In this document: in pieces, positions 1,213 to 54,051 of the stretch
Numbering within the stretch: the first letter of the stretch is position 1
Layout: each line of letters begins with the position of its first letter
IMG/VR virus record: IMGVR_UViG_3300029922_000013
Span: 62,001-126,000 of that record
Source: a virus
Reading direction: 5' to 3' (one strand)
DNA length: 64,000 bases
Program-made: the position numbers and the translations under genes
Notes under the pieces: model-generated
Seen by the model: the letters and a program-made list of their open reading frames with translations, nothing else
Told to the model about the DNA's origin: nothing
The model's database searches: none

Positions 1213-1220
1213 TTATATCA
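1213..1220 (-). promoter_or_regulatory. Late-type promoter box TGATATAA
   Basis: On the minus strand the sequence reads TTATGATATAAGAAG about 35 bp before the ATG at 1178. It matches the box seen ahead of the structural genes and has no convincing -35 hexamer. It would drive the 199-residue gene and groEL. Confidence 0.5.
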
Positions 1221-1235: not shown

Positions 1236-1264
1236 TTGACTTTTTACAAATATATATATAGTGT
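1236..1264 (+). promoter_or_regulatory. Sigma70-like promoter of the helicase gene
   Basis: TTGACT, 17 bp, TAGTGT. The -10 overlaps the GTG at 1261, so the RNA should start near 1271, just ahead of ATG 1273. This promoter decides the start choice of the next gene. Confidence 0.6.
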
Positions 1265-1272
1265 CTATAGTT

Positions 1273-2775
1273 ATGAAAGTCAAGATATTATCGCCCACTA
1301 AAGCGTATATAATGCAAGCTTCCAATGAAGAAATGGAATCTCTAGCAGATCAGCTTACTTATATCGATCTGGCTGTTAAGTATGAGCTAAAAAGACTATC
1401 TCAAAACTTATGGTATAGGAATTCTAACCCCATAAAGTGGCAACTTCAGTGTGATTCACTAAAAGTGAAACTTAAACAAACTCTTATTTTTGATGAAAAT
1501 GGTATAAAATATATACGGCCTGGTAGCTTGCCCTATTTGACGGGTCTATCCGTAGACGTAGATAATCAAGTAATATATCCCACCCCCAAAAAGATCCCAT
1601 GGCAAAAACCTCTGCCATTTACTTTATACGACTTTCAAGGGCTTTCTGTTGAAAAATTAATCGATGGAAAACATGACAACGTAGAATTATGCACAGGTGC
1701 AGGAAAATCTGCAATAATTTTAAGTGTTTGCAGAGAAACTGGTTTTAGATGTGCTATAGTTGCGCCTTCTAAGGGGATTTTTAATGAACTAGTGGAAAAA
1801 TTCGAGTATCATCTAGGTAAAGGGAATGTGGGTAAGTTCGGAGATGGAAAGAAAAAGATAGGAAAAAGAATAACCATTTGTATAGGCGATAGTCTGTGCA
1901 ACCTAAAACGAGGCACAGAAGAGTGGGACTTCTTCTCTAAGTTGGACATGATTGTTTGCGATGAGTCACACACTCTTCCAGCAGAAACTCTAGAGCAAGT
2001 CTGTCATGGTGTGTTTTCTGAGGTTCCTTATAGATTATTCCTATCCGGTACCCAGACTCGAAATGATGGTGGCGTCAAATTATTACAAAGTATAGTTGGC
2101 GAAACTGTTCATAGTTTGACCACGCAAGAAGCTGTCGGAGCTGGTTTTATTTGTCCTCATGATTACAGAATTGTATCCATACAGTCTTCTGACCCAAGTT
2201 TTACAGATACCGACCCTCTGGAAACAAAAAGAATACATTTTTTACGCAATCATAATATAGCGGCTTTTATAGCTAAGTTTTCAACTATTATGGCTGAAAA
2301 AGGGAATCAGACCCTTATTTTAGTAGAAGAACTGAATCAGATAGCTATGCTTAAGAAGTTATTGACAATACCTTTCGGATATGCGCACTCTGAAACAAAA
2401 AAAGAACGACTTCTGGAATTAGGACTAGAAAAGGTGAATGTTGCAGAACAAATTGAACGCTTCAATCGTAACGAATTTAAAGTGTTCGCAGGGACTTCTT
2501 GTCTACATGTTGGGGTGAATATATATCCCATGCGGAATACCTTTAATTGGATAGGGGGATCGTCTGAAATTAAGACCAAGCAAGGTCCTGTTGGGCGTTC
2601 CATTCGTTTAGCTTCAGCCAATCCGTACGCTTCTAAATGTGACAAAAAAGACATCTGCACTATATGGGATTTCAATGTTATAAACAACGATACCTTAGAG
2701 CGCCATTTGCGGAAAAGAATCGAATGCTATGCAGATTCTGGACCAGGCTTGATTAAGTTTGTTAAGTTAAAGTAA
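1273..2775 (+). CDS. Superfamily 2 helicase, UvsW-like
   Basis: ATP-dependent DNA or RNA helicase, likely acting in recombination or fork restart as T4 UvsW does. Seen (numbering from ATG 1273): motif I CTGAGKS near residue 140, motif II DESH near 230, motif III SGTQ near 260, and a C-terminal motif VI-like GPVGRSIRLA near 438. About 500 residues, close to UvsW (about 500). The N-terminal 100 residues before the helicase core resemble the extra DNA-binding domain found in UvsW but are not clearly assignable. An upstream GTG at 1261 would add four residues, but it lies inside the -10 box. No Shine-Dalgarno is visible, so a leaderless transcript is likely. It precedes the sigma gene by 20 bp. 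Confidence 0.85.
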   Translation: MKVKILSPTKAYIMQASNEEMESLADQLTYIDLAVKYELKRLSQNLWYRNSNPIKWQLQCDSLKVKLKQTLIFDENGIKYIRPGSLPYLTGLSVDVDNQVIYPTPKKIPWQKPLPFTLYDFQGLSVEKLIDGKHDNVELCTGAGKSAIILSVCRETGFRCAIVAPSKGIFNELVEKFEYHLGKGNVGKFGDGKKKIGKRITICIGDSLCNLKRGTEEWDFFSKLDMIVCDESHTLPAETLEQVCHGVFSEVPYRLFLSGTQTRNDGGVKLLQSIVGETVHSLTTQEAVGAGFICPHDYRIVSIQSSDPSFTDTDPLETKRIHFLRNHNIAAFIAKFSTIMAEKGNQTLILVEELNQIAMLKKLLTIPFGYAHSETKKERLLELGLEKVNVAEQIERFNRNEFKVFAGTSCLHVGVNIYPMRNTFNWIGGSSEIKTKQGPVGRSIRLASANPYASKCDKKDICTIWDFNVINNDTLERHLRKRIECYADSGPGLIKFVKLK

Positions 2776-2780
2776 AATTA

Positions 2781-2789
2781 TGATATATA
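2781..2789 (+). promoter_or_regulatory. Late-type box TGATATATA before the sigma gene
   Basis: Plus-strand TGATATATAGGGG directly ahead of ATG 2796, the same box as at the structural operons. If it is a -10 element, transcription would start almost at the ATG. The GGGG next to it could also serve as a weak ribosome site for read-through RNA. Confidence 0.4.
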
Positions 2790-2795
2790 GGGGTT

Positions 2796-3842
2796 ATGAG
2801 CAAAGGCCCCGCAAAGAAAAAACAATTTGAATCCTTCGACAACAGCTTTTATTGGCTTGCTACTTGTATAGCTGGGATACTTGCTGAAAATAAACTAGAC
2901 AACACTACTCAAAAAGAACAAGTTGAAGAACTAGTATTGGCAGAGAAGCTCTTTAAAGAAGAAATACTAAAATACAAGTATTCTTCTCAAGTATATAAAC
3001 GGTTTATTCAAAAAATCAGAGTTGAAGACCATAACATATTATATTCTAAGCCTTATTTTAGAGAATCTTCTACTACCTTTTCCCAAAAAATTACTCCATG
3101 TCTAAAAAAAGAGGATATCGAAGGTCTCAAAAAGTTCGATATCAATTTTCAGCTCATAAAGTTCATTAAAACCAATTGGCGCGGTCCTCTGGGGGCTAAG
3201 GCTGAAAAGCTTTACCAACGAGTCTACAGGGCCAGGGAAGTTCTTATGGAGAACAATCTGCCCCTAGCTATCAATTGCGCTAAACTGTTTTACAGGAAAG
3301 TTCCCAAATCTAGTTTGACTCTATCGGACATGATTTCTTCGGCAGCCATGGGGTTGAGTTCTGCTGTAGATAAATACACTGGTAAATATACCGAAGTATT
3401 CAGGAGCGTCATTCTTGGTAGGGCTACAGGCAATCTAATCAGAGATTATTCAGCAACTGCCCTTCATTTTTATCCATCAGATCGAAGAGTCATGTATAAA
3501 GCGAATTCTATTCGTGGTAGACAAGGTATAACTGATATCTATGAGCTGACCGCTGCCGTTAATGAAAGTTTCCTAAATGACTCAAAAGAGGGTAAAAATG
3601 TTCCTAAAGGCCAAGTTCAGGTATCAGACTTGCAAGCCCTCATGAATGCCGCCTCTATAGTCTCAGTTGAAGCTACTATCTCTGAAGAGGGATTCGGAGC
3701 TTACGACTATACTCCAGACGAGAAGTCTAATGCCGAAGAATCCATGATTCATCTAGAAACTAATGAAAAGATTAGGAAATTGATTCTAGAGCTACCTCCA
3801 ATCCATAGAAAAGTGTTACGTTTAAAAGGCGTAAATTTTTAG
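2796..3842 (+). CDS. RNA polymerase sigma factor, lacking region 4.2
   Basis: 348 residues. Seen: a sigma70 region 2-like segment at about residues 150-235 (NLPLAINCAKLFYRK, LTLSDMISSAAMGL, AVDKYTGKYTEVFRSVI, LGRATGNLIRDYS), which in the family binds the beta' coiled coil and melts the -10. The C-terminus has the region 4.1 signature LPPIHRKVLRLKG and then stops, so the helix-turn-helix that reads the -35 is absent. The stop is followed at once by a promoter, so this is not an obvious frameshift. T4 gp55, which also lacks region 4, directs transcription from -10-only late promoters (TATAAATA). That makes a late sigma the best inference, matching the TGATATAAA boxes in this window. The N-terminal 140 residues are of unknown fold. 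Confidence 0.7.
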   Translation: MSKGPAKKKQFESFDNSFYWLATCIAGILAENKLDNTTQKEQVEELVLAEKLFKEEILKYKYSSQVYKRFIQKIRVEDHNILYSKPYFRESSTTFSQKITPCLKKEDIEGLKKFDINFQLIKFIKTNWRGPLGAKAEKLYQRVYRAREVLMENNLPLAINCAKLFYRKVPKSSLTLSDMISSAAMGLSSAVDKYTGKYTEVFRSVILGRATGNLIRDYSATALHFYPSDRRVMYKANSIRGRQGITDIYELTAAVNESFLNDSKEGKNVPKGQVQVSDLQALMNAASIVSVEATISEEGFGAYDYTPDEKSNAEESMIHLETNEKIRKLILELPPIHRKVLRLKGVNF

Positions 3843-3886: not shown

Positions 3887-4207
3887 ATGCAACAACCCAA
3901 TTCTTTTAATGGCAAATTGATTCTAGAAGCTTATAAGCACACTGATGTTAAGGCCGAAGTCCGCTCTGGATGGGCTATGCCAGGACAGCGTAATGCTTTA
4001 AAAGGACTTAAAGTACTGATTCAGGCCACACTTTCGGACGGAACCGTTGTACCCTATGGTTCAACAGCTTTTCTCAAAGAAGAATCTCTTCACGTTGCTC
4101 CCTGGGCAAAGAATAAGCTCAAGAGTGACACGTTGCCAGGCGAATTTATTATCGTAACCATGAACGAGGTAGAATACATCACTCCTCCTGAAGGTAACGT
4201 TGCTTGA
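3887..4207 (+). CDS. Possible GroES/gp31-like co-chaperonin
   Basis: 106 residues, the size of GroES (about 97) and T4 gp31 (111). Seen: a predicted all-beta protein with a flexible glycine-containing stretch at residues 25-37, then a barrel-like pattern (KVLIQATLSDGTVVPYGST). It ends in GEFIIVTMNEVEYI, which resembles the GroES end (EVLIMSESDILAI). Identity is too low to be certain. Context supports it, because the same phage carries groEL at the window's left edge. If right, it caps the phage or host GroEL ring. Start ATG 3887 has AGGAG upstream. First gene of a long overlapping operon. Confidence 0.42.
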   Translation: MQQPNSFNGKLILEAYKHTDVKAEVRSGWAMPGQRNALKGLKVLIQATLSDGTVVPYGSTAFLKEESLHVAPWAKNKLKSDTLPGEFIIVTMNEVEYITPPEGNVA

Positions 4208-4374
4208 GAATAGGAAGACTAGAATTTGGCCTTATCAAGGGTACGCATGACTGGAGCTTTCACAGAGCTATATGTCAATGTGCAATCCTAAGCACAGGAC
4301 CGTTTTACTTCACTTGGCTAGATAAAAATTGCAAGTGCTTAGCATGTAAGAAATACGATTGTGAGTGCAAATGA
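4204..4374 (+). CDS. Small Cys-rich protein (56 aa)
   Basis: A 56-residue reading frame starting at TTG 4204, which overlaps the previous stop as TTGA. Its own stop overlaps the next start as ATGA. Seen: cysteines arranged CQC near residue 24 and CKCLACKKYDCEC at the C-terminus, suggesting a small metal-binding domain. The tight double overlap in a translationally coupled operon is the main evidence that it is real. No function can be assigned. Confidence 0.55.
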   Translation: MRIGRLEFGLIKGTHDWSFHRAICQCAILSTGPFYFTWLDKNCKCLACKKYDCECK

Positions 4375-5363
4375 TTAAGGTGCTATATGTGGGTGATCCA
4401 CATTTCAAATCATCTCAAAAAGATGAGATGGAACAGCTCATGATTTTTGTTCGTGACAGCGCTTTCGAACACAACGTAGACCAGATCGTAATTCTAGGCG
4501 ATTTAAACGATACATTTGGAGTTCTCAGGACAGACAATCAAGTTTTCTGGGAAAAATGGTTGACTGAACTAAGTGCAGGAAGACCAAAACTTTACGTATT
4601 AGTGGGCAATCACGACAAAAAGAATCAAGGTAATGATGATGATGATGAGAATTCATTGTCAGTGTTCAATTTGATAGATAACCACAATCTGGACATTGTT
4701 GAATCACCAATAATAGACGGCCCATTTGCTTTTGTCCCATACATTCACGATAAAAAGCGATTCGTAGAAGAGTGTAATGCACTCAAGGTTTATGGAGCAA
4801 AAACTTTAATTTGTCACAATGAGTTTGATGGTGGCCAGTATGATAACGGATTCTATATTCCAAATGGGGTGAAACCAGAGGAACTTAATTACGATCTAGT
4901 TATTTCGGGTCATATTCACACTCGATCTACTATCGGCAAAGTAAGACACCCAGGGTCACCCAGATGGATGACTGCCTCGGATGCTAACAAAGAAAAAGGG
5001 CTCTGGCTCGTAACTCATGACTCTAATACGGGCGCCATCTTGCACGAAGAGTTTTTGGACACTTCCCATGTTTGCACTCCCATCTATGCCTACGAGTATA
5101 AAGAAGGAGACAACTATCCAGAGATTCCGGAAGGTTCGAAAGCCTCAGTTCAGCTGATCGGCTCCTCGGAGTGGATTAGTAAAGAAAAGGCAAAACTTAA
5201 AGGTAAAGCTTCCATTAGCTGTAAGATTACTGATAAGACAAAACCTAAGAACCGCAAAACCGGAAATAGTTTAGAATACTTTGTAAATCAAGTGTTTGAG
5301 CCTATTAGCGGACTTAAAAAAGAGAAAATGGTTGATCTGATGAGGGAATTGGGAGTACTATGA
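4371..5363 (+). CDS. SbcD/Mre11-like nuclease (T4 gp47-like)
   Basis: Nuclease subunit of the SbcCD/Mre11-Rad50 (gp46-gp47) complex, which resects DNA ends for recombination. Seen: the calcineurin-type metallophosphoesterase motifs in order, GDPHF near residue 8, GDLNDTF near 44, GNHDKK near 82, CHNEFDG near 148, GHIHTRS near 178. Length 330 residues matches gp47 (339). Start: an upstream GTG at 4365 is in frame, but ATG 4371 forms the usual ATGA overlap and is preferred. Its ATPase partner is at 8165-10345, behind seven other genes rather than adjacent. The C-terminal 80 residues probably bind SbcC. Confidence 0.9.
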   Translation: MIKVLYVGDPHFKSSQKDEMEQLMIFVRDSAFEHNVDQIVILGDLNDTFGVLRTDNQVFWEKWLTELSAGRPKLYVLVGNHDKKNQGNDDDDENSLSVFNLIDNHNLDIVESPIIDGPFAFVPYIHDKKRFVEECNALKVYGAKTLICHNEFDGGQYDNGFYIPNGVKPEELNYDLVISGHIHTRSTIGKVRHPGSPRWMTASDANKEKGLWLVTHDSNTGAILHEEFLDTSHVCTPIYAYEYKEGDNYPEIPEGSKASVQLIGSSEWISKEKAKLKGKASISCKITDKTKPKNRKTGNSLEYFVNQVFEPISGLKKEKMVDLMRELGVL

Positions 5364-5722: not shown

Positions 5723-6437
5723 CAACAGTCTGACTATATTAGATAACGGTAAAGTCACAGATATCACCCCTAAAGAACTTCAGGTTATTAACAAGTTTAA
5801 AGAAGAAGGTATGCCAGGATTGGCCTCTCTAGATCCCATCGCTATGACAAAATCTTTAGATTTATACATGTCCGGTAAAACTTACCATGAGATAGCAACA
5901 ACTCTCAGGATTAAAAAAGATCTTGTTCTTTATCTAGGACAAAAGTTTAACTGGTATGCTACGAAAGTTGAGCACCTTGAAATTTTAGATGCTTCATTAA
6001 AAGAGCGCATTCTACATGCTAGCTTGGTAAACCAAGATTTTCTTCTACAAATTCAACAGTTTTTTCATAAAAAGATTGGTCGAAAAATGACCAAATTTAT
6101 AGCTAACAACGATGACGAAGCTGCCAATTCTGTGGATAAAAAAGATATCGAAATGTTCTTTAAAGCCGTGGATTTGTTGGATAAAATTTCATCCGAAAGA
6201 GTTCCCACTAATAACAGTAGGCCTACTGTAGGGCTTAATCTAGGAGATGGGGTTACAGTTAAAAAGGTCGGCGAAAATGAAGTTACCATTACTCCTAGGA
6301 ATAGAACGGTAGGAGAAATGCTTAATGAACTAGCCAATCTAAAACGTGAAGAAGAAAATAAAGCTAAAAATACAACTTATGATATAAACACAGTGAAAGA
6401 TGAAACTAAAAACGAAGGGGAAAGTAATGAGTCTTAA
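5712..6437 (+). CDS. Helix-turn-helix protein, unknown role
   Basis: 241 residues. Seen: a likely helix-turn-helix at about residues 47-75 (YMSGKTYHEIATTLRIKKD), a helical middle, and a charged C-terminal tail. The domain order (HTH, helices, disordered tail) resembles some small terminase subunits and other phage DNA-binding proteins, but no specific family can be claimed. Starts at ATG 5712 inside the end of the preceding gene and overlaps the next gene's start at 6427. Confidence 0.6.
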   Translation: MGYDNSLTILDNGKVTDITPKELQVINKFKEEGMPGLASLDPIAMTKSLDLYMSGKTYHEIATTLRIKKDLVLYLGQKFNWYATKVEHLEILDASLKERILHASLVNQDFLLQIQQFFHKKIGRKMTKFIANNDDEAANSVDKKDIEMFFKAVDLLDKISSERVPTNNSRPTVGLNLGDGVTVKKVGENEVTITPRNRTVGEMLNELANLKREEENKAKNTTYDINTVKDETKNEGESNES

Positions 6438-7290
6438 TTTTAAAAGAGCTTTGGTTGGGTTGAGTGTGTTGGTTGCTATTGTTTTGTATCCGCTTGCATC
6501 AGTGGGTAAATCTACTGATAAGGGCGGTCTCGAATTCAATGAAGATAATTTGGTCACTATTCGAGGAGAAGTCAGCGAAGAAAGTGTGGCACAGGCTATT
6601 AATACGCTCAGAAGCCTAGATGCTCAAACTAGTCGTTTCGGTAAGAACAAGCCAATCTATTTGTTTCTGGATACTCCTGGTGGCGATATTCAGGCAGGAC
6701 TTGAGTTGATCGAAGCCGCAGAAGGTCTAAAACGTCCAGTTCACACCGTTACCTTGTTTGCCGCTAGCATGGGTTTCCAAATCGCCCAAAATATGGGTAA
6801 TAGATACATTCTTAAAAATGGCGTCCTCATGAGCCATAGAGCAGCTGGGGGATTCCAAGGATCTTTCGGTGGTAAGAATCCGAGTCAGCTAGATAGCCGT
6901 TACAGTTTTTGGCTCAAGCGCATTGAAGAACTAGATCAGCAAACTGTAAAACGTACCAACGGAAAGCAAACTCTGGAAAGTTATCGTAAACAATATGCTG
7001 ACGAAATGTGGCTTACAGGAACTCAATCAGTTGAACAAGGTTATGCAGACCAAGTTGTTTCTGTTAGATGCAGCGATACACTGAGCGGCAGCGATGGCCA
7101 CGATGTAAATTTTATGGGGTTCAGGGTCCATTATGAAACTAGCAAATGTCCTATCATTACTTCGCTCCAAAATATAGCCATCGGATCTCTTGATGGTAAA
7201 AATATTTTCACTGCTCCAACTCCAGCAGTAGTGGAAGAAGTGAAGCAAAAGTTTATTGATCAATTTACTCATGAAAAGACTTTGCGTTAA
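6427..7290 (+). CDS. Exported ClpP-like serine protease
   Basis: 287 residues. Seen: an N-terminal signal peptide (Lys/Arg at residues 6-7, hydrophobic 8-21, small residues near 24-27), then a ClpP/crotonase fold with TPGGD near 84, the nucleophile in FAASMGF (Ser114), His in MSHRAAGG (His137), and a late Asp in the GYADQV region near 206. Family knowledge: ClpP-type peptidases cut peptides using a Ser-His-Asp triad, normally in the cytoplasm. Export would place this one in the periplasm or outside. Start ATG 6427 is chosen because AAGGGG lies 6-7 nt upstream; a longer frame from 6400 would bury the signal peptide. It lies in a DNA-metabolism operon, coupled to its neighbours on both sides. 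It could instead be a SppA-like peptidase. Confidence 0.8.
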   Translation: MSLNFKRALVGLSVLVAIVLYPLASVGKSTDKGGLEFNEDNLVTIRGEVSEESVAQAINTLRSLDAQTSRFGKNKPIYLFLDTPGGDIQAGLELIEAAEGLKRPVHTVTLFAASMGFQIAQNMGNRYILKNGVLMSHRAAGGFQGSFGGKNPSQLDSRYSFWLKRIEELDQQTVKRTNGKQTLESYRKQYADEMWLTGTQSVEQGYADQVVSVRCSDTLSGSDGHDVNFMGFRVHYETSKCPIITSLQNIAIGSLDGKNIFTAPTPAVVEEVKQKFIDQFTHEKTLR

Positions 7291-29698: not shown

Positions 29699-32600
29699 TT
29701 AGTTACCGATTCTGTAGATGCTTATGGTTGCGGCTACTGGAGCAATAGTAACTGAGCTATTTTGGAAAAGAGAAACTGTATCCCCAGCATTTAGTTTTAA
29801 AATCGTACCGCCTTGAGCGTATCTATTCACTGCTTGCGTAGTTTCGGCTCTAGAACCACCCAAGAGATTGGTAGTCGGTGTAGCTCCACCAGCATTAACT
29901 GAAGCGTATCCCTCATAATTTCCATTCACAGCAAAAGCAGTCGCACTAGAAATCAAAGTACCGTCTGCATGATAAGTGCCACTTTGTGGACAAGTCCAAA
30001 CGCCAGTGCTCGTATTATACGAATTGGTGGTATCCTCGATCTTGTTCGTAAGGATAATTATTCCCGCACTCACGGAAGAACTCGTCGTGTTATACTTCAT
30101 GGCTACTGTATTGGACCCTGAAGAAGAACTTGAAGACGATCCTCCACCAGAAATGAGTTCAAACGTTACATAGTTATTCGTAGATGTATTATCTAGAGTA
30201 ATCGTGTTGCCGGTGCCGTTAGTAACTGTAAGCCACAATAAATCTCCGGCCTGAGCGTAGAAGGTCGTAGACCCATTAGGGAAAGCTCCAACTGCTGACG
30301 TAGTTTGAGCAGAGAATTCCCCAAGTGTAGATGTCGTAGAAACAGACCCAGACTGATTGGCGGTGAGCTTTATTTGCTGAGACACGGTCATAGTCCCAGT
30401 GTTTTGAGTTGTGACAATACCGGTGACCTTCCAATAACCCGTGATCGGAACCGTATATTTACCAGTACTAGTCGAATATCCTGCGTTCGTATCGTAAACA
30501 GAAGCAGAAAATATAACATTGGTTGTTGCAGTTGTGGCAATGGAAGTATTCGAAGTTGTGGCTTTTGCAGCTATAGCCCCACTTCCGGAACCTCCCCCAC
30601 TGCTTCCGCCAGTACCTGCACCGTAGAATTCTTCCACGATGATGATACCTGCAGCTCCAGTACCCCCAACATATCCAGATCCAGCACCACCACTACCGTT
30701 AGTGCCACCTGAACCAATGGCCATCGTATATGTGGGCAATGGATTTGACACAATAGCGACAGTCATACCACCGCCACCACCACCTGCTCCCGCCGCGAAG
30801 CCAGCCACGTTAGCGAGTGCACCGCTACCACCACCGCCGCTATTAGCGGTGGCATTTAAGCCGTGCCCAGTAACTGCACTAGAATTTAGTCCACCGCCAG
30901 CATAAAGTGGTGAACTACCACCTATACCTCCAGATAAAACGGGTACTGAACCTGATGTTATCACTTGTTTAGCGCCGCCAACTTGACCACTGAGATTTAA
31001 ATAACCACCGGTTCCTGCACCGCCAGCTCCGCCATCGTTTGTTCCAGCAGCACTTCCGCCCGTAGCTGATAACGAAACAGTTCCGCCAGAAAACGTACTG
31101 GTACCGCCTCCAGAACCGCCCACCGTTGATGTTGTGCCTGATCCGCCACCGCCACCACCACCGCCGACCACAGTAACCCTCAGGTAAGAAGGCGAAGGAT
31201 TGGATGGGGCCGTATAGGTAGTCCCAGACGTAAGAACTTGAACTGTTGGAGCTTGTGAGGCAGATGCGGCAGCACTAGTTCCAGGACCAACGTAGAAATC
31301 GTCAAGATACAGAGCGAATCCGCCAGCGGGACCAGCTGTTGGATTATAAACTGCTATCTGAAAACTACCCATATTTGCTGGAGTTTGGAATGATCCCGTA
31401 CAATAGCCTACACCAGAAATTTGAGTGAAATTGAATACTCCTACGGGAATGATCCAAGCATTATTTTGGAGATCGTAAATGGCTACCCCAAAAGTATTGC
31501 TAGAAGTTCCGGAAAAATTTGTGCCAGTGGAGGTCACGGCACTGTATGCAAAACTAAACTGCAAAGTTTTGGATTGATCACAAATGTTTATAGCGACAGC
31601 CGGAGAAATGTACATATCCCCAGCATTGGTAGCTCCCGAGGCAGAAAAAGACATGGAATATTGACCAGAAAGCTGGCCAGAACTTACAACTGCAGGGGCG
31701 TGAGTGTTGGCATTCGCACCAGATCCACCATTAGAAGCAGAAAAGGCAGCATTCCCCGTTCCCACAGAAGTGGGTAGATTTGTAGAACTAAGAGAGGAAT
31801 GGGCCAAAGTCCATCCACTGACGTTGTCGTCTTCGAAAGTATTTCCGATAGCCAAATAGTTTCTACCCAAAACTGGTAAGTTCAACAACTGCCAGTTCCC
31901 AGCTTGATAATCGGCTTCAAAACTTACTGAGGAAGAAGTGAACGAAGAAGTTAGAGCGATCCAAACATCTTTGTTATAGGTGACACAATTTCCGATAACG
32001 TACGGGAAACTTGCAGCCCAAGGATTTAATCCCCCGCTACTTCCTGAACCACCAGTCAGCAACCAGGCCCCATTTCCGCTATCAGCAGCAGTATCATACG
32101 TAAAGATGAAGGTACTGCCCACTGGCATTGTTACGTTTGCCCCGGTTCCAGTTAAAATGTTGGTCGGACCAGTAGGAGAATGGTTATTTACGATGGTAGC
32201 AAGATTAGAACTTTGATTTGAAATAGTGATCGTTTGTCCATTGGTACCGGTAGGAATGCCGCTAAAAGTTGTTCCAGATGCAACAGTAGTCAAACGAACA
32301 AAGTTGTAGTTCTGGTCCCCAGAAGTTAGGGTCTGATTGGTTCCGCTATAGGAAGTAGCATCAGTAAAGGCATTGATAATAGTGGAAGCAAGAGCTACCC
32401 AAACGCCATTAGTGGTCGTGTTACTTTCCAGTTTTACTATGATAGATGCGCTAGGTTTTACGGTAAAAAGAGTGGTACCGCCATTATTGTTGATAGTCAA
32501 AATTCCAGTTGAAGTATTGTAGAATTCAAACTTTGCCCCACCTGGATTGCCGGAAGGGGCAGTTGGAAGAGAAAAGGTTGTAGCGTCTGGCAACTGAAAT

Positions 32601-32725
32601 ATTTGGGTTGTTGATCCCGTTAGAATCTCAATCTGCGGAGAAAAGTTAGTAAGGGTTGTGGTACCTGCTGCTGCGGTAATAGTTGTAATTCTCTCGATCA
32701 GACCGCCATATTGAAAAGTTGCCAT
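29699..32725 (-). CDS. Tail adhesin with Gly-rich and C1q/TNF-like domains
   Basis: 1008 residues, probably a receptor-binding virion protein. Seen in order: a small beta N-terminal domain; FTDATSYSGTNQTL and carbohydrate-module-like beta regions (about 230-480, with FEDDNVSGWTL typical of a jelly-roll); a glycine-rich block at about 500-700 (runs of Gly with THYTAP-like lead-in TYTAPSNPSPSYLRVTVVGG) resembling polyglycine adhesins; and two C1q/TNF-like beta domains at about 720-870 and 880-1008 (YSTSTGKYTVPITGYWKV; YNTSTGVWTCPQSGTYHA). C1q-like heads trimerise and bind ligands. Ribosome site AGGAG before ATG 32725; TGATATATA box just upstream. Confidence 0.78.
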   Translation of the reverse strand: MATFQYGGLIERITTITAAAGTTTLTNFSPQIEILTGSTTQIFQLPDATTFSLPTAPSGNPGGAKFEFYNTSTGILTINNNGGTTLFTVKPSASIIVKLESNTTTNGVWVALASTIINAFTDATSYSGTNQTLTSGDQNYNFVRLTTVASGTTFSGIPTGTNGQTITISNQSSNLATIVNNHSPTGPTNILTGTGANVTMPVGSTFIFTYDTAADSGNGAWLLTGGSGSSGGLNPWAASFPYVIGNCVTYNKDVWIALTSSFTSSSVSFEADYQAGNWQLLNLPVLGRNYLAIGNTFEDDNVSGWTLAHSSLSSTNLPTSVGTGNAAFSASNGGSGANANTHAPAVVSSGQLSGQYSMSFSASGATNAGDMYISPAVAINICDQSKTLQFSFAYSAVTSTGTNFSGTSSNTFGVAIYDLQNNAWIIPVGVFNFTQISGVGYCTGSFQTPANMGSFQIAVYNPTAGPAGGFALYLDDFYVGPGTSAAASASQAPTVQVLTSGTTYTAPSNPSPSYLRVTVVGGGGGGGGSGTTSTVGGSGGGTSTFSGGTVSLSATGGSAAGTNDGGAGGAGTGGYLNLSGQVGGAKQVITSGSVPVLSGGIGGSSPLYAGGGLNSSAVTGHGLNATANSGGGGSGALANVAGFAAGAGGGGGGMTVAIVSNPLPTYTMAIGSGGTNGSGGAGSGYVGGTGAAGIIIVEEFYGAGTGGSSGGGSGSGAIAAKATTSNTSIATTATTNVIFSASVYDTNAGYSTSTGKYTVPITGYWKVTGIVTTQNTGTMTVSQQIKLTANQSGSVSTTSTLGEFSAQTTSAVGAFPNGSTTFYAQAGDLLWLTVTNGTGNTITLDNTSTNNYVTFELISGGGSSSSSSSGSNTVAMKYNTTSSSVSAGIIILTNKIEDTTNSYNTSTGVWTCPQSGTYHADGTLISSATAFAVNGNYEGYASVNAGGATPTTNLLGGSRAETTQAVNRYAQGGTILKLNAGDTVSLFQNSSVTIAPVAATISIYRIGN

Positions 32726-32739
32726 TTTATTCTCCTAAA

Positions 32740-32760
32740 CCTTTATATATCATAAAGATT
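32740..32760 (-). promoter_or_regulatory. Late-type promoter box with adjacent AATCTTTA
   Basis: Minus strand AATCTTTATGATATATAAAGG, 15-35 bp before ATG 32725 of the adhesin gene. No -35. The rest of the gap to 32814 holds nothing else recognisable. Confidence 0.5.
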
Positions 32761-33923: not shown

Positions 33924-36900
33924 TTAATTATTCAGTATTGCTGTCCAAGACAAGACATAATTTGCCGTATCCGTTGGCATATTCCATTTCAAAGTAAATC
34001 CAGTAGTAGCCTGAGCTGTTACGTCGATAGGTTGGAATTGCGGATTCGTATCCGTGGTATTTAAGAAATTGGCAGTCACAGAATAGGCGGTACTAGCGTA
34101 TGCCGTACTGAGCGTGATAGCCTTACTGGTTGCACCACTCGTCAAAGTCGTTTTACCACTAAATATCCCTAACATCGTTAGAACTTGAGCAGCAGTTAGA
34201 TCTGCAGCATTAGCCGTACTACCAGTATTGTTACCTTTGATAGTATCAGCCGGCATTTGAGCCAAGTTAGTATTGGTAATGACGTTGGTTCCAGATACAC
34301 TTGCAGCAGTCCCAGACGTATTCGCCGCGTTATTCGGAATGTCCCCCGAAGCTAAAGCTCCCCATGCTGGAGCGGCAGATACCGATCCCGTTCCAGTTTG
34401 AGTTAGGAATTGTTTTGTGGCCGTGGTATTACCTGCAAGTCTGGCTGGTGCTGGAGTTGCATTTTCATATATAATATCACCCAATGTGGTCATTGGGTTA
34501 GTGAACGGAGTAGACCAAGTCATGGCCGTTGAACCGCCAGCCTGGGATGTTAGGACTTGGCCAGCACTACCAACGGTTGTTGGGAGATTGAAATTGTATG
34601 CGGAAGTTGCACCACCGTTTTGTACGGTGATGGATGCTCCACCTACTCCTGTAACAGCGAAACTAAGTTGACCTGTTTGGACAGCATTGATACCTAAAGT
34701 AGGAGTTGCTGTAAACGAAGGATCTGAACTAGTTCCTTGACCAGCAAGAAGTGTTCCAGCAGCAGCCGCAGCCAGTTGAGTAATGGCAGAGGTTCCAGCA
34801 CCAATCAGGACACCGTGATTTGTCAGTGTCGTTTGGCCAGTACCGCCATGATTCACAGCGATGGTGGTAGCATTCCACGTACCAGTTGTGATAGTTCCAA
34901 CGGACACCAGAGCCGAAGCCGTAGTTAGCCCACTAAGAGTGGTAAGGGTGGAATTAGTAGTCGCTACTAGTGAAGTTACCCCAGTATTCGAGATGGTCAC
35001 GTCTCCAGTTACAGCAGTTGCTGTAGCAACATTTGATCCATTACCGAGCAAGATATCCGCACTTGGAAGAGATGCTAATTTGGAGAAAGCAATTGCTGCA
35101 GAGCCAGATACCTGAGTATTTGTAATTCCACCAGCCTTGACTTCTAGCTGATCACTGCCATTGATATCTATAGTAGAATTATCAACATTAACTGAAATTT
35201 TTGTACCACTTCCACCTGAAATAGCGCCGGTAGTGGAGAATGCAGTGGAAGCGATTTGTGTTTCAGTAATTCCCGCATTTTTAACGGAGAAAACTCCACT
35301 TACTAATTGAAGTGTTATTCCATCTGCCGAGTATGCTCCTGCTGAAGAAAACTGGACCCAAGTGATAGCAGTCGTGCCAAGTGTCCCGCCTGGTTGGGAA
35401 GTGCAGACAAAACCTAAATCGGCATTGACAGTACCTTCTTGTACAAATACAGCAGCCGCTGGGACTTCAGCCCAAGTATTCATATCTGAAGAACGTGCCC
35501 ACGCTCCAGAAGCGGAAACGTATATCCCGTTATTTGCTGCTGTGGACTGATTTTTAACTAAAACACGAGAAGAGCTTGTGGTGAACCCATCAATTGTTTG
35601 CTCACCGGACAGGGTAATGTTAGCCGTAGTAGCTACCAAAACTGCATTTTTCCAAGAAGTAGCGTTGATAAAATTGTCAACATAGCTTTTGTTGACCAAA
35701 TCATTTGGATTAACAGGAGTGCTACTATTTGTAGGTGTAAATCCGCCAAGATTGATAGCGCCAGACATCGTTCCACCAGCAAGAGGTAGATATATAGCCG
35801 ACAAGCTTGGAATGTCTGCGGAAACGAGAGACCTAAAGGTAGGCTGAGCTGCCGATCCAGTAGATGGCCCCGCAAACACAGTATTGGCAGTTTGAGTACT
35901 AAGGGTAAAAGTTAAAGTTCCGGAACTAGTTACCGGACTTCCAGAAATAGAATAAATGGGTGTTGAACTTCCGTCCGAGAGGGCGACAGAAGTAACGGTA
36001 CCACTAGTGGCAGGACTTGCCCAAGATGGGATTCCGCCAGACACTGTAAGTATTTGTCCTGTGGAACCAATGCCCAACTTGGACAACACGTTGGTCGCGC
36101 TAGCGTACAAAGTGTCACCAGTTGTGTACGAACTTAGTCCGGTACCACCATGTGTTGGTCCTATTGCAGTTCCATTCCACACACCGGTCGTAATGGTTCC
36201 GATAGACGCAAGACTAGAAGCTGTGGTAAGAGCAGACAGACTAGTGAGAGTTCCGTTAGAAGTAGCCACTAAACTGGTAGCTAATGACCCAGCAGTAGTC
36301 GTTACGTCACCAGTTAATGTTGGGAATTGACCTGCTTGCAAAGTTCCAGATGCTTGTGTTGTAAGAGAAACTGTGCCAGAAAGTTGAGAAGTTGGCAGAC
36401 TCAAAGAAGAAAGGGTGGTTAGCGTGGAATTGGAGGTAGCTGTGATATTAGCAGCATTCCCAGAAATATTTCCAGATACTTGCGATCCAGGCAAAGAAAG
36501 GCTTGAAAGAGTAGTAAGGGTACTGTTACTAGTAGCAGTGATATTGGCAGCTGTACCCGTTGTATTTTGATTTAACGTAGGAATATCAGCTACAACAATA
36601 GTTCTAAATGTAGGTGCTCCTGATGATCCATTAGGTGCAGCCAAAAACGTATTTGCGGCTTGATTTTGAAAACTAGAAAGAGTTAGGTTACCAGTGCTAG
36701 TAATCGGAGTATTTGTAACATTAAACAATCCAGTAGAATCAACTAACCCAACTGAAGTGACCCCAGTACTTGGAATCGAATAGTAACCTAACGTTCCCGA
36801 ACCGTTCGTACCATAATATTTCGTATTACCTGGGGTTGCGGAATCGTTAACTAAAGTTACCGTTCCACCAGTATTTACTAAAGAATCTGAGAAGACTAAT

Positions 36901-37754
36901 GCCGAACCGCCTGCTTGCCAGGTAGGAAGGGCTCCGGGACCGTTTGAAGTGAGAACATATCCGCTAGTACCTAAACCTGAAACCTGCTGTAGGGCGCCTG
37001 TAGAAGTCAACCCACCTGCTAGTACCGCGTAAGGTGTAAAAGAAGTGTTTCCAGTACCGCCTTCAGAAACTGAAGCTGGATTTGGACCAGCGCCACTTGG
37101 GACGTTCCCAACACCCATCATTTGGCCATCGATCCAAATTTGAGTAGTGCTCATCACTATACCAATTTTTAGATCGGATTCGTTAGTACCAGTTGGGGCA
37201 GTCGTACTAAAAGCTCCTGCGGAAGTCAGCCAAACTGGCTTGCCGATATCGCCTGTGGCAAAATCAGTATCACTGGAGCCTAGAGTGTAAGAACCGAATG
37301 AGTAAACCGTTATGCCTTGTCCAGCGGATACGCTGGTGGTAGAGAAAGCTATACCAATCGCCCAAAACTCGTCTGCCGTAACAGTATTGTAATCGGCTTT
37401 GTAAACTTCATCTGTTGATTCTGAGAGAGAGTTCATTCCCCATCGAACAATGTAAGAAGTATCTGCCGTGAAAGATTCACCAGCAATAAAAGTATTTGAT
37501 ATTGCAGAAGAAGTGGCCACTGAAGACCAACTTAAGTTCCCAGAGCCATCGTTTTTAAGAAATGTCCCGGCTGTTCCCTGGGCATTTGGCCAGAACACAG
37601 CATAGCTGGTAGTAGTGGCGGAAGCAAATTGGGTAAGATTTCCAGAAGTAGCTCCGTCAACTTGTAATCCCAACACACTTAGGGTGTTGAGAGATAGATC
37701 TACAGTTCTAGGGGCACCGTTTTGGAGTTGTAGAAATTTCGAATAAACACTCAT
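33924..37754 (-). CDS. Long tail fibre protein (1276 aa)
   Basis: 1276 residues, Ser/Thr/Gly-rich beta-repeat protein. Seen: N-terminal SKFLQLQNGAPRTVDLS shared with the 770-residue neighbour (likely a common attachment point); a domain at about 105-220 (GKPVWLTSAGAFSTTAP) that the neighbour carries at its C-terminus; many repeats of the types GTGQTT, LTTLSSLSLP, TGTWNATTI and SADIPSLSA; a domain near 690-800 (TSWKNAVLVATTANITL, LVKNQSTAANNGIYV) common in phage fibres; and the lectin-like C-terminus shared with the 365-residue protein. It is likely a trimeric fibre shaft plus tip. Confidence 0.8.
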   Translation of the reverse strand: MSVYSKFLQLQNGAPRTVDLSLNTLSVLGLQVDGATSGNLTQFASATTTSYAVFWPNAQGTAGTFLKNDGSGNLSWSSVATSSAISNTFIAGESFTADTSYIVRWGMNSLSESTDEVYKADYNTVTADEFWAIGIAFSTTSVSAGQGITVYSFGSYTLGSSDTDFATGDIGKPVWLTSAGAFSTTAPTGTNESDLKIGIVMSTTQIWIDGQMMGVGNVPSGAGPNPASVSEGGTGNTSFTPYAVLAGGLTSTGALQQVSGLGTSGYVLTSNGPGALPTWQAGGSALVFSDSLVNTGGTVTLVNDSATPGNTKYYGTNGSGTLGYYSIPSTGVTSVGLVDSTGLFNVTNTPITSTGNLTLSSFQNQAANTFLAAPNGSSGAPTFRTIVVADIPTLNQNTTGTAANITATSNSTLTTLSSLSLPGSQVSGNISGNAANITATSNSTLTTLSSLSLPTSQLSGTVSLTTQASGTLQAGQFPTLTGDVTTTAGSLATSLVATSNGTLTSLSALTTASSLASIGTITTGVWNGTAIGPTHGGTGLSSYTTGDTLYASATNVLSKLGIGSTGQILTVSGGIPSWASPATSGTVTSVALSDGSSTPIYSISGSPVTSSGTLTFTLSTQTANTVFAGPSTGSAAQPTFRSLVSADIPSLSAIYLPLAGGTMSGAINLGGFTPTNSSTPVNPNDLVNKSYVDNFINATSWKNAVLVATTANITLSGEQTIDGFTTSSSRVLVKNQSTAANNGIYVSASGAWARSSDMNTWAEVPAAAVFVQEGTVNADLGFVCTSQPGGTLGTTAITWVQFSSAGAYSADGITLQLVSGVFSVKNAGITETQIASTAFSTTGAISGGSGTKISVNVDNSTIDINGSDQLEVKAGGITNTQVSGSAAIAFSKLASLPSADILLGNGSNVATATAVTGDVTISNTGVTSLVATTNSTLTTLSGLTTASALVSVGTITTGTWNATTIAVNHGGTGQTTLTNHGVLIGAGTSAITQLAAAAAGTLLAGQGTSSDPSFTATPTLGINAVQTGQLSFAVTGVGGASITVQNGGATSAYNFNLPTTVGSAGQVLTSQAGGSTAMTWSTPFTNPMTTLGDIIYENATPAPARLAGNTTATKQFLTQTGTGSVSAAPAWGALASGDIPNNAANTSGTAASVSGTNVITNTNLAQMPADTIKGNNTGSTANAADLTAAQVLTMLGIFSGKTTLTSGATSKAITLSTAYASTAYSVTANFLNTTDTNPQFQPIDVTAQATTGFTLKWNMPTDTANYVLSWTAILNN
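35803..36021 (-). repeat. Fibre module repeat, copy 1
   Basis: Encodes TSVALSDGSSTPIYSIS through FRSLVSADIPSLSA. A close homologue lies at about 39085-39312 in the next fibre gene, similar at DNA as well as protein level, so the two genes may recombine with each other. Confidence 0.6.
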
Positions 37755-37815: not shown

Positions 37816-37857
37816 TAAAGATTGCCGTTTTCGAGGCGTTCAAAGGGTTTATATCAT
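37816..37857 (-). promoter_or_regulatory. Late-type promoter box and AATCTTTA leader element
   Basis: Minus strand TTATGATATAAACCC (box 37857-37848) followed 27 bases later by GGCAATCTTTA (37823-37816), then AGGAAG and ATG 37754. It starts right after the terminator of the upstream fibre gene. Confidence 0.55.
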
Positions 37858-37922: not shown

Positions 37923-40235
37923 TTAATTTATTCCCATAGTTTGAACTTGGACCATGATGTTATTGGCATCTTTAACCATACCAACCTTAACAACAGCCGA
38001 AAGAGTTGCTGTAGGAGCGGTAGTGGTACAAGCGCCAGATGCACCCAGATAGAGTGGAAGTCCTGGGGTGAATCCATGCGAAGGTACATTGATATAACCT
38101 TCTTCGGTCACAGTGACTGCTCCACCAGCAGAAACTGCACCTGCTGGGTAAGCTAGACCGATAACGTAGAAGTTATCGTTAGTGGTGGTATCGTTATCAG
38201 CTTTCCACATATGGCCAGCAGTGCCGCCGCCATCAGTTGTACGTTCATATCTCAAGGCATACAAAGTACTTGCCGACAAAGCCTGATCTGAAATTTCAGA
38301 AGTGGCATTTTTAGGAGAAGACAACACTTCGATAGTGCTTCCAGCTCCATTTTGATCGGTAGTAATTCCGTCCGTGACAGCGCCGAGTTTAGCAGCAGTT
38401 ACGGCAGCATTGTTGATCTTAGAAGTAGTAACAGCATTTGCAGCAATCGTAGTTGCAAAACTACCAGTACCGGAACCAGTTACATCACCAGTCAAGGTGA
38501 TCGTTTGGTCGCCAGTGTTGGTTCCGCTTGAACTTCCGGAGAAGTTAGAAGCAGAAATTGCACCAGAGAAGTTCGCAGCAGCAGCCGTAATGGTTCCAGT
38601 GAGAGTAGGGCTTGCACTGAAAACAACGTTTCCAGTACCAGTCGTACCGGTAACCGTGTTACCTTGGATGGCTGCGATAGTAGCAGCTTCAGATTGCGAC
38701 TGAGTAGCAGCAGAAGTCGTAACGTCACCAGTTAACTGATTGATAGCGTTAACAGTAACAGCGCCAGTTGCACCGTTTACGGAAACAACGCCGTCAGCAA
38801 GAGGGGAACGCTGCCAAATAGTGCCATTGTAGATGACGAAATCGCCAACATAGTAGCTTTGTGAACCGCTACCAAGATTTTGGGTACCAGCGACAGATAC
38901 GCGATAAACCCAACCAGCAGTTCCGGTGCCGTCAGCAAGAGTTGGAGTGTTGGTAGAAGCATCCCATGCTCCTTTGTACTCCATGACGCTAGAAGGCAAT
39001 TGGCTAAGAGGAACTTTACCGGAACCATCCAAAGAAGCTACGCCGTTAGCAGAACCAACTTCGGTTTGGGTTACGTAAGTAGCAGACAAATCTGGGATAT
39101 CTGCAGAAACCAAAGATCTGAATCCTGGTTGAGCAGCAGATCCGCTAGATGGACCAGCAAATACTTTATTTGCAGACTGAGTGTTAAGAGTAAAGGTCAG
39201 ATTACCAGTGCTGGTAACAGGACTGTTAGAGATGGTGTAGATTGGTGTACTAGAACCATCAGCTAAACCGACAGAAGTTACGGTACCGCTCGTTGCAGGG
39301 GCTACCCACGATGCGGTCGACCCATTGGAAGTAAGAACGTACCCAGAAGTACCTATAGCAAGGTTGCCGTAAGTATTGGTACCGGTTCCTAAGATCAATC
39401 CACCAGTTGCAGTAGCTGGGGCAAGTGCGTTAAATGCAGCTGCAGCTGAAGTCTGGCCAGTACCGCCGTTTGCTATTGCAATCGTAGTACCATTCCAAGT
39501 ACCGCTGGTGATTGTCCCAACGGAAGTTAAGCTGGAAGAGAGTACGTTAGATGCCAAAGTAGAGCCAGTGAGAGTTCCAGCAGGAGCAACTACGGCATTA
39601 CCGCTAGCAGCAGTGATCAATCCCTTAGCATTTACAGTAAAGGTGGGAATGGATGTTGAAGAACCGAAACTGCCCACATTTAGGTTGACAGTCGCCAAAG
39701 TAAAGGCAGCGGCTCCCGGACCACTCGCTGTGCCATCTCCGGTCAAGCTAGTGATAGCACTCGTGGAAAGGTTGGCGAGGGCGTTATCGATACCAGCCAA
39801 TGCGCCCATGACTGTTGGAGCAGTAGGGGTGAAAAAGTTATAAGTAGCCGTATCTCCAATGAGAGAAGACCCTGCATCAACCCCACTAGTAAGAGTGGTT
39901 GTTCCTGCAGTTGGGGTTTGTGACCCACTACCGCTAGTCAGGGTGGCCATGTTGTTGGAGTGTGCTAGGTTCCAAGCAGCGATTTGAGCTGCAATCGTAG
40001 TCGAACCATTGAACACTAGGGCAATTGAGTTGCCGGCTGCTCCAGGGTTATTTGCCGTAATCGTTACGGAAGTAGACGTTCCAGGAATCGTCCCAGTAAA
40101 GGAGCTATAGGCTCCTGTTTGTGAGAGAAGTGTTGTTCCAACTTCGAGAGCTTGGACCTGGAGAGTATTTGCTGACAAGTCAATAGTTCGTGCTACGCCA
40201 TTGACTAATTCTAAAAACTTACTGTAAGTAGACAT
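37923..40235 (-). CDS. Tail fibre protein (770 aa)
   Basis: 770 residues, paralogous in parts to the 1276-residue fibre. Seen: the shared N-terminus SKFLELVNGVARTIDLS, a module GNSIALVFNGSTTIAAQI near 70, repeats (GTGQTSAAAAFNALAP, SADIPDLSATYV), a phage-fibre domain with GDFVIYNGTIWQRSPLADGV near 465 and SVNGATGAVTV, and a C-terminal beta domain GLPLYLGASGACTTTAP. It has its own late-type promoter and terminator, so its level may be set separately from the other fibres. GAGG lies 9 nt before ATG 40235. Confidence 0.8.
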   Translation of the reverse strand: MSTYSKFLELVNGVARTIDLSANTLQVQALEVGTTLLSQTGAYSSFTGTIPGTSTSVTITANNPGAAGNSIALVFNGSTTIAAQIAAWNLAHSNNMATLTSGSGSQTPTAGTTTLTSGVDAGSSLIGDTATYNFFTPTAPTVMGALAGIDNALANLSTSAITSLTGDGTASGPGAAAFTLATVNLNVGSFGSSTSIPTFTVNAKGLITAASGNAVVAPAGTLTGSTLASNVLSSSLTSVGTITSGTWNGTTIAIANGGTGQTSAAAAFNALAPATATGGLILGTGTNTYGNLAIGTSGYVLTSNGSTASWVAPATSGTVTSVGLADGSSTPIYTISNSPVTSTGNLTFTLNTQSANKVFAGPSSGSAAQPGFRSLVSADIPDLSATYVTQTEVGSANGVASLDGSGKVPLSQLPSSVMEYKGAWDASTNTPTLADGTGTAGWVYRVSVAGTQNLGSGSQSYYVGDFVIYNGTIWQRSPLADGVVSVNGATGAVTVNAINQLTGDVTTSAATQSQSEAATIAAIQGNTVTGTTGTGNVVFSASPTLTGTITAAAANFSGAISASNFSGSSSGTNTGDQTITLTGDVTGSGTGSFATTIAANAVTTSKINNAAVTAAKLGAVTDGITTDQNGAGSTIEVLSSPKNATSEISDQALSASTLYALRYERTTDGGGTAGHMWKADNDTTTNDNFYVIGLAYPAGAVSAGGAVTVTEEGYINVPSHGFTPGLPLYLGASGACTTTAPTATLSAVVKVGMVKDANNIMVQVQTMGIN
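39085..39312 (-). repeat. Fibre module repeat, copy 2
   Basis: Homologue of 35803-36021; encodes TSVGLADGSSTPIYTIS through FRSLVSADIPDLSA. Same orientation. Confidence 0.6.
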
Positions 40236-40270: not shown

Positions 40271-40297
40271 TAAAGATTATCCCTTGTTTTATAAACC
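40271..40297 (-). promoter_or_regulatory. Late-type promoter box with AATCTTTA
   Basis: Minus strand GGTTTATAAAACAAGGG then ATAATCTTTA (40278-40271), 36 bp before ATG 40235. TTATAAAAC replaces TGATATAAA; the downstream part matches the 43.6-kb copy closely. Confidence 0.45.
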
Positions 40298-43579: not shown

Positions 43580-43605
43580 TAAAGATTCCTATTTGTTTTA
43601 TATCA
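43580..43605 (-). promoter_or_regulatory. Late-type promoter box with AATCTTTA
   Basis: Minus strand GTGATATAAAACAAATAGG then AATCTTTACC (43587-43580), 66 bp before ATG 43514. It lies back to back with the plus-strand promoter at 43607. Confidence 0.5.
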
Positions 43606-43606
43606 C

Positions 43607-43635
43607 TTGACTTCCAATCTTTACCTATGATAGAG
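43607..43635 (+). promoter_or_regulatory. Sigma70-like promoter
   Basis: TTGACT with ATAGAG at 17 bp (or GATAGA at 16 bp). Predicted start within two bases of ATG 43643, again leaderless. Confidence 0.45.
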
Positions 43636-43642
43636 TCAAGAC

Positions 43643-44035
43643 ATGAGGTATTCCACAGTGGGGAAATCCAAGGACCGTACTGGTGAAATTAGTAGGGAAC
43701 AGAGATTTGTTAAGGAAAATCAAGCACTTAAGCGTGAAAATAGTCGCCTTCGTAAACTATTAGCTCGCATAGATCTAGATCGTTATGATCAAGTACGTGA
43801 AATCATAGAAGAACATTATTCCGAAAGGAAAAATGAGGGACAAGAGATTCTTGATAAAATGAAAGAAGAGTGGCGTTGCCACCAGTGTAGAACCGGTTTG
43901 TTGGAGATTTTTCTATTTAATAAAATAAATGAAACCTATTATTATCGTAAATGTAATGGTTGCACAAATCGTACCAAAAGCAAGAAATACACTCCGAGTG
44001 TTCGTGGGATCATAAAGAAAGAAGAAAGTAAATAA
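43643..44035 (+). CDS. Coiled-coil plus zinc-ribbon protein
   Basis: 130 residues. Helical first 80 residues, then a four-cysteine zinc ribbon: CHQC near 77 and CNGC near 107, separated by a beta hairpin (LEIFLFNKINETYYYRKC). Likely nucleic-acid or protein binding. Located in a plus-strand island within the late block and served by an early-type promoter, so it may be a regulator; this is inference only. Confidence 0.65.
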   Translation: MRYSTVGKSKDRTGEISREQRFVKENQALKRENSRLRKLLARIDLDRYDQVREIIEEHYSERKNEGQEILDKMKEEWRCHQCRTGLLEIFLFNKINETYYYRKCNGCTNRTKSKKYTPSVRGIIKKEESK

Positions 44036-44253
44036 TGGAATTTGTAGAAGGCCAAGTTGTTATTTGTGGAACAGGACAATGTGGAACTATAGCCCAAAAA
44101 TCGGGCAAAGAGATCTGGATATTATTGAGAAACGGAGACCTTTTTGTAGGTCAGGACTACCAAATCAGGGTTCCTCAATCCCAAGAAGATCTAGATTCCT
44201 GCCCTTTAAACGTAGATCGTGTTGAGACCAAAAGAGAAACTAGGGAGCGTTAA
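44035..44253 (+). CDS. Small beta-barrel-like protein (72 aa)
   Basis: 72 residues, start overlapping the previous stop (TAATG). N-terminal half is an SH3-like pattern (FVEGQVVICGTGQCGTI, IWILLRNGDLFVG); charged tail. Its TAA shares the palindrome TTAA with the stop of the convergent gene at 44250. Confidence 0.55.
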   Translation: MEFVEGQVVICGTGQCGTIAQKSGKEIWILLRNGDLFVGQDYQIRVPQSQEDLDSCPLNVDRVETKRETRER

Positions 44254-45002
44254 GTCACCCACCACTTCGAATACGGATTTTGGTCCAATCCTTTAGGATT
44301 GTAGTAGATCGCAGCCACATCGTTCATCTTATTGGGGTAATCCTTAGCCAGTCTGCGAAGCCATATCAAAGAAGCTAACAAACACATAAAGCTAGTTTTC
44401 TTAGTGTTGTTTTGCAAATGCCATGCTAAACGTCTAGAATCGGTATCTCCAGTAGGAGTTCCTATGCAAGAAATGGCAATAGAACCTGCAGCTACAAAGT
44501 AAACTGGAAAAGACAGGATTCTAATCAACCAGTGAAAAGGATTTAGCAATGATGGGAAAGCTGCAGATACCATAGCAGCCACCAACTGCGGCTGTCTAAC
44601 AAGAAAACTTTGCAAAGTCTTCGTTCCAGGATTCACATTATTCAAAAAACCTAGGTATTTTATGCAAGCCCAAAATAGTGTTCTGGGGATATCGGTATTT
44701 TTTAATTCAATGCAACCATTAAGTACCGCTAAAATATTATCTGGACCGTCTTGACCGTCATTTTGACCTACAGGAACACGATTGAGCAAACCTTCAGGCC
44801 CAATACACCTATCTATCATATGTTCAAAGCTAAGTTCGTCTGATACAGTAAGTTGACCATTTTTCTTAAGAATAATATACATCTCAGAGGTATACATTGT
44901 ACCATTATCTGACCCACTTTGATTTGATGCCCAAGATCCGGGCTGGGGCGAATTTAGTCCATTACCGTCAATATAGCTCTTAAAATCATCTATAATATCC
45001 AT
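44250..45002 (-). CDS. Hypothetical protein (250 aa)
   Basis: 250 residues; no family recognised. Residues 1-60 are polar, 90-165 helical with moderately hydrophobic stretches (FHWLIRILSFPVYFVAAGS) that could be a membrane or buried helix, and the C-terminus ends in IYYNPKGLDQNPYSKWWV, typical of a packed beta end. It lies between the fibre and baseplate genes on the late strand, so it is probably a virion or assembly protein. Only an AATCTTTA element precedes the ATG at 45002; no ribosome site is visible. Confidence 0.65.
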   Translation of the reverse strand: MDIIDDFKSYIDGNGLNSPQPGSWASNQSGSDNGTMYTSEMYIILKKNGQLTVSDELSFEHMIDRCIGPEGLLNRVPVGQNDGQDGPDNILAVLNGCIELKNTDIPRTLFWACIKYLGFLNNVNPGTKTLQSFLVRQPQLVAAMVSAAFPSLLNPFHWLIRILSFPVYFVAAGSIAISCIGTPTGDTDSRRLAWHLQNNTKKTSFMCLLASLIWLRRLAKDYPNKMNDVAAIYYNPKGLDQNPYSKWWVT

Positions 45003-45007
45003 ATCTG

Positions 45008-45015
45008 TAAAGATT
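45008..45015 (-). promoter_or_regulatory. AATCTTTA element
   Basis: Copy of the late leader element, 6 bp before ATG 45002. On the plus strand the same bases form a small AAAG/CTTT hairpin followed by T's. Confidence 0.35.
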
Positions 45016-54035: not shown

Positions 54036-54051
54036 ACCTTTATATATCATT
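54036..54051 (-). promoter_or_regulatory. Late-type promoter box TGATATATA
   Basis: Minus strand AATGATATATAAAGG about 20-35 bp before ATG 54017, nearly identical to the copy at 32.75 kb. It drives the J-like genes. Confidence 0.5.

Follow-up and report, generated by a model that had tools for sequence, protein, structure and literature searches.

The bacterial sigma factors SigA and FliA keep region 4.2 and read a -35 element. In bacteriophage T4 the work of the late sigma factor is split between gp55, in which a sigma2 domain is joined by a helix-loop-helix and a tail that binds the clamp, and gp33, which binds the flap (PMC7892883, PMC2988020), and the T4 literature asks why no fused late sigma factor has been found (PMC2988020). 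The phage sigma factor gp36 of phiEco32 uses a single-element late promoter, tAATGTAtA, with a start 6-8 bp downstream (PMC8948821), so a phage sigma factor that needs only a -10 element is known in principle.

The sigma factor described here is encoded in a window of 64,000 bases (bases 62001-126000 of a 150,858-base IMG/VR phage record; coordinates below are in window numbering). The best reading is that it works like T4 gp55 or phiEco32 gp36 although the tests run showed no homology to either; what sets it apart is the clean loss of region 4.2 with sigma3 and region 4.1 kept in one chain, together with an N-terminal domain and a new promoter box. It resembles gp55 as a putative late factor built around sigma2 without region 4.2, in the single -10-like element without a -35 element that it would read, and in the position of its gene near genes 47/46; gp55, however, lacks sigma3, region 4.1 and the extra N-terminal domain, and the T4 late box is TATAAATA whereas the box in the sigma-bearing phages is CAATCTT. 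The earlier note on this DNA put the protein at about twice the length of gp55, which is correct (348 versus 185 amino acids), and proposed a profile search against sigma-70 and gp55, which was positive for sigma-70 (TIGR02937, E 5e-8) and negative for gp55: the protein is not in phrog_234, and hhalign with a shallow profile gave a probability of 1%. It is more than a longer gp55, keeping sigma3 and two region 4.1 helices, and no homology to gp55 was detected. The likeness to phiEco32 gp36 lies in the similar form of the box (AATnTnTA), but gp36 is an ECF-type factor of 213-214 amino acids whose TIGR02937 match runs to position 157 of 165, into region 4.2, so that gp36 keeps a helix-turn-helix-like end; compared as a single sequence against the profile of the window sigma factor, gp36 showed no similarity. 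To bacterial SigA and FliA the likeness is one of domain order (sigma2-sigma3-4.1), profile and fold.

Architecture and conservation of the sigma factor

The sigma gene and its neighbours are:
1261-2775, plus strand: UvsW-like DEAD/ResIII helicase, the upstream neighbour of the sigma gene in nearly all relatives
2796-3842, plus strand: sigma-70-family protein without region 4.2, 348 amino acids (TIGR02937, PHROG_351, and SigA/FliA in the PDB by profile and fold)
2844-3173, plus strand: all-helical N-terminal extension, residues 17-126 (AlphaFold model, family alignment)
3195-3458, plus strand: sigma2, residues 134-221, predicted to bind core and read the -10 element (NCBIfam, PDB profiles, model helices)
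3474-3653, plus strand: sigma3-like region, residues 227-286 (unbroken FliA/SigA alignment, helices in the model)
3732-3824, plus strand: region 4.1 without 4.2, expected to contact the beta-flap (model, SigW profile)
3810-3842, plus strand: conserved C-terminus KVLRLKGVNF and stop
3887-4207, plus strand: small protein X, between the sigma gene and the gp47-like gene, a neighbour conserved in most relatives
4365-5363, plus strand: gp47/SbcD-like phosphoesterase, the downstream neighbour

The product of 2796-3842 is matched by TIGR02937 (NCBIfam) at residues 146-344 (E 5.1e-8); NCBIfam sigma matches span residues 137-195, the NCBIfam SigW profile covers residues 296-346, the PHROG_351 match is weak (1.8e-6), and a Pfam search of the 348 residues gave no significant match. 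PDB profile matches are to SigA and FliA, with the sigma2 part at residues 133-197, and the best PDB fold matches of the AlphaFold model, which is of moderate confidence (pLDDT 79, pTM 0.58), are to Thermus SigA; homology to sigma2 of the sigma-70 family is thus found by profile and by fold. The extra N-terminal domain of the earlier note is real, being helical in the model, and carries a motif, NILxxxxYFRE, that is conserved across the family alignment. The model places sigma3-like helices at residues 227-243, 248-264 and 276-286, then a disordered linker (residues 287-311), and then exactly two region 4.1 helices (residues 313-331 and 335-343). The closest fold match, BFVD A0A6J5L5T1, has 29% identity and was compared by fold and identity; it and the Myxococcus phage Mx1 homologue WNM70309.1 are annotated as putative sigma or SigBFG, in records that mention neither the truncation nor a promoter.

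In four genomes the TIGR02937 match breaks off at 128-130 of the 165 profile positions, short of the complete region 4 with its 4.2 helix-turn-helix. Of 55 distinct homologues, with identities of about 38-73%, 52 end at L[KR]G followed by another three or four residues, which confirms the earlier claim that the protein stops after region 4.1. The other three run into a contig end (two cases) or a gap in the sequence (one). The stop codons behind this end vary (TGA, TAA, TAG), and K339, L343 and G345 are invariant in 25 aligned sequences. The homologues of Mx1 and of three other relatives (L010, L011, L015) end at the same place as the window sigma factor, and a search of three frames downstream of the gene in these four and in the window found no 4.2 helix-turn-helix, so a programmed frameshift or readthrough that restores region 4.2, for which a check had been suggested, is rejected and the truncation stands. 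The same end in the homologues and the frames without a helix-turn-helix make the loss of region 4.2 an old, conserved trait; both the truncated architecture and its conservation are computational observations. An apparent interruption of the sigma genes of L029 and L030 was rejected as well, the tblastn alignment having run upstream past the true start. The set of six genomes compared comprises G000 (the window's 150.9-kb genome), G003, G005, G007, G008 and Mx1, with genes called by a simple ORF caller; it yielded a single clear sigma factor per genome, and no other Sigma70_r4 protein matched over the cut-off in these six.

Among approximately 50,700 phage records searched, Mx1 has the only convincing homologue (35% identity), a direct one with the same truncated end and with the same CAATCTT box in its genome. 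More than 60 loci come from IMG/VR and a few further from two MAGs; a single-protein scan of viral contigs found no relatives, which were recovered with alignment queries. Three relatives (L094, L095, L096) lie on contigs from a single Deltaproteobacteria MAG (bog_1112) and another (L093) in a Saprospiraceae MAG; these are either host hints or binning errors. Of 63 loci, 61 keep the gene order helicase-sigma-(X)-gp47. Protein X, present in most relatives, is a candidate for functional coupling. A gene beside gp47 is a trait of the T4 gp55 family, since gp55 adjoins gp47 in T4-type phages such as Moby (compare gp55-gp47 in L087), and the sigma gene shares it; the position may hint at a common origin with gp55, which the sequence does not show.

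Two boxes upstream of genes

Boxes in the window, termed A (TGATATA) and B (CAATCTT(T/A)A), are:
1214-1220, minus strand: box A before 579-1178
2781-2787, plus strand: box A of the sigma gene, 8 nt before its ATG, a spacing that predicts a leaderless start at 2796
6380-6386, plus strand: box A before the ClpP-like gene 6400-7290
32753-32760, minus strand: box B CAATCTTTA before 29699-32725, adjoining box A at 32746-32752
37816-37823, minus strand: box B CAATCTTTA before 33924-37754 (box A at 37850-37856)
40271-40278, minus strand: box B TAATCTTTA before 37923-40235
43580-43587, minus strand: box B GAATCTTTA before 40788-43514 (box A at 43599-43605)
43616-43623, plus strand: box B CAATCTTTA before 43643-44035
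45008-45015, minus strand: box B CAATCTTTA before 44250-45002, near-leaderless, with 7 nt from CAATCTT to the ATG
54043-54049, minus strand: box A before the baseplate J-like gene 48294-54017; no exact box B found
63744-63751, minus strand: box B GAATCTTTA before 61334-63691 (box A at 63778-63784)

The product of 6400-7290 is a ClpP-like protease (PF00574), and that of 29699-32725, with both boxes upstream, has 1008 amino acids and a C1q domain (PF00386).

With at most one mismatch, 30 copies of TGATATAAA were counted in the window where 30.2 are expected, so its global enrichment is rejected and its placement alone is enriched. Among 7-mers upstream of genes in the 150.9-kb genome TGATATA ranks first, with 16 of 34 copies in the small upstream fraction (1.2 expected). 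Its TG is required (7.9-fold enrichment versus at most 4.8 with other dinucleotides), and most often 7-8 nt separate the box from the start codon. The sigma70/sigmaA extended -10 element is TGnTATAAT; a spacing of 8 nt places the TG at -15/-14 and makes the A of the ATG position +1, as for a sigma70-type extended -10 element and a leaderless mRNA. An extended -10 box stands exactly 8 nt before the sigma ATG in many relatives (among them L010, L024, L028, L031, L032, L035, L037, L038, L046). There it often lies within a short inverted repeat, which varies from one relative to another; inverted repeats around box A are weak overall (p 0.02) and suggestive in L010, L027, L031 and L046. Box A precedes 12 of 144 structural and 6 of 92 replication genes in the six genomes (p 0.8). 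The 170-kb genome of Mx1 has one TGATATA and none upstream of genes, although the sigma factor is present, and G008 has few.

Box B is enriched and strand-oriented upstream of genes in all six genomes, including that of GC-rich Mx1; in the 150.9-kb genome 19 of 27 copies of AATCTTTA lie upstream of genes, where about one is expected. Counted across genomes as CAATCTT or AATCTT[TA]A, it precedes 27 of 144 structural genes versus 1 of 92 replication genes (p 1.4e-5, six genomes), the structural labels of some hypothetical genes resting on cluster position. Because sites in Mx1 had prompted this comparison, Mx1 was left out of a second count, which gave 19 of 116 versus 1 of 70. Many structural genes have no exact box B. 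In Mx1 about 7-12 copies of this short box lie upstream of genes, and 7-37 nt separate it from the portal, tail, baseplate and tailspike genes that it precedes. At 32 of 47 leadered sites the seventh base downstream of the box is an A, versus 36% at copies elsewhere (p 8e-6), and this A is expected to be the start site; for near-leaderless genes the distances from CAATCTT to the gene are concentrated at 6 nt, and the two spacings together place AATCTT at -12 to -7. Single-base changes inside AATCT abolish the enrichment, as do most changes of the last T of CAATCTT (CAATCTA keeps 2.2-fold), and the base before AATCTT ranks C>T>G>A. As a positive control, the same procedure applied to the T4 late region returns TATAAATA first.

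A -35 element accompanies 12% of TGATATA boxes (14% in shuffles) and 9% of box B sites (13% shuffled), and TTGACA near either box is not above chance; the two boxes, their placement and the absence of a -35 element are plain results of computation. CAATCTT or AATCTTTA lies beside four of the five late-gene TGATATA boxes in the window, and such A-B pairs are perhaps tandem early and late promoters. The boxes abut at 32746-32760 (CAATCTTTATGATATA), with similar composites in G007 and G003; before other late genes box A lies about 20-35 nt upstream of box B. Another element, TTGACTTT, is enriched upstream of genes in G000, L022, L024 and L037 and is probably the -35 element of early promoters.

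Proposed assignment of the boxes

The favoured reading, with a probability of about 0.6, is that a late sigma factor reads CAATCTT before head and tail genes and that the host starts the sigma gene itself from extended -10 boxes. The sigma factor would bind the host RNA polymerase core via sigma2 (beta' clamp helices), with sigma3 retained and the two region 4.1 helices anchoring it to the beta-flap tip, and would read a single element, [C/T]AATCTT at -13 to -7, before head and tail genes, with transcription beginning at a purine, most often A, at +1; the flap contact and the timing of its action are predicted features of this scheme. With the helix-turn-helix of region 4.2 gone, such promoters would need no -35 element. 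The sigma gene and some others, several of them leaderless, would be started by the host holoenzyme at TGnTATAAT-type boxes; for a box that starts the sigma gene itself the host holoenzyme is the simpler reader, and it is presumably what reads TGATATA. Co-occurrence and late-gene placement point to the pairing of the sigma factor with CAATCTT, which another phage regulator could also read.

It is unlikely that the truncated sigma factor reads TGATATAAA boxes as late promoters, the version of the earlier note. The box is real, oriented, without a -35 element and present before several late genes, so that part of the claim holds; but late-specificity fails (12/144 versus 6/92), the box equals the extended -10 consensus with the TG required, Mx1 has the sigma factor and no upstream TGATATA, G008 has few, and a box that drives the sigma gene itself would leave the start of the cascade to another polymerase. 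CAATCTT is the better partner, and the logic of T4 gp55 survives as an analogy with its TGATATAAA partner box removed. That CAATCTT is instead an RNA or DNA-binding regulatory site, acting in translation or antitermination, would agree with its frequent position within 30 nt of start codons and with some copies lying inside inverted repeats; this is very unlikely, as inverted repeats around box B are not significant (p 0.09) and a -10 element would account for both the leaderless spacing and the preference for A at +7.

Two further alternatives concern the protein. As a middle or general factor, it would leave the reading of CAATCTT, or help with it, to a separate phage protein, which would be a gp33-like coactivator bound to the conserved LKG[IV]x[hydrophobic] tail. 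The invariant tail residues and the conserved small neighbour X speak for such a partner, an arrangement that is nonetheless improbable: neither gp33, gp45 or DnaN nor another region-4 protein was detected in the six genomes. That the sigma factor is a degenerate or non-functional remnant, as its incomplete region 4 might suggest, deserves almost no credence, given the same end and full frame in 52 of 55 distinct homologues and the conserved gene neighbourhood. The pairing of a working late sigma factor with CAATCTT is the reading retained below.

Comparison with the divided late factor of T4

T4 has gp33 and the clamp gp45, whereas a gp33-like coactivator (phrog_254) is absent from the six sigma-bearing genomes, as the earlier note had found for the window, and neither a phage gp45 clamp nor DnaN was detected in any of them. 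The tail of the sigma factor is LKGVNF and differs from a C-terminal clamp-binding motif of the SLDFL type. The window encodes a DNA polymerase that matches phrog_405 and is homologous to the DNA polymerase III alpha subunit of Mx1, so the sliding clamp is probably the host's. Tentatively, and with less assurance than the pairing with CAATCTT, the protein may be a natural single-chain form of the split T4 late sigma factor, without region 4.2 and a phage clamp and reading CAATCTT, in which gp55-like sigma2 and gp33-like flap anchoring would be joined in one polypeptide. The sigma factor offers a naturally occurring case in which to ask what role region 4.1 has once 4.2 is gone, and whether clamp and coactivator can be dispensed with by a late sigma factor that needs only a -10 element. 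For this clade of large phages, which is widespread but hardly studied and whose single isolate, among about 50,000 phage records searched, is Mx1, a promoter class, transcription start sites and leaderless mRNAs are predicted. A GroEL-like chaperonin gene is present in Mx1 and also in the genome that contains the window (G000 60781-62547; window start to 547).
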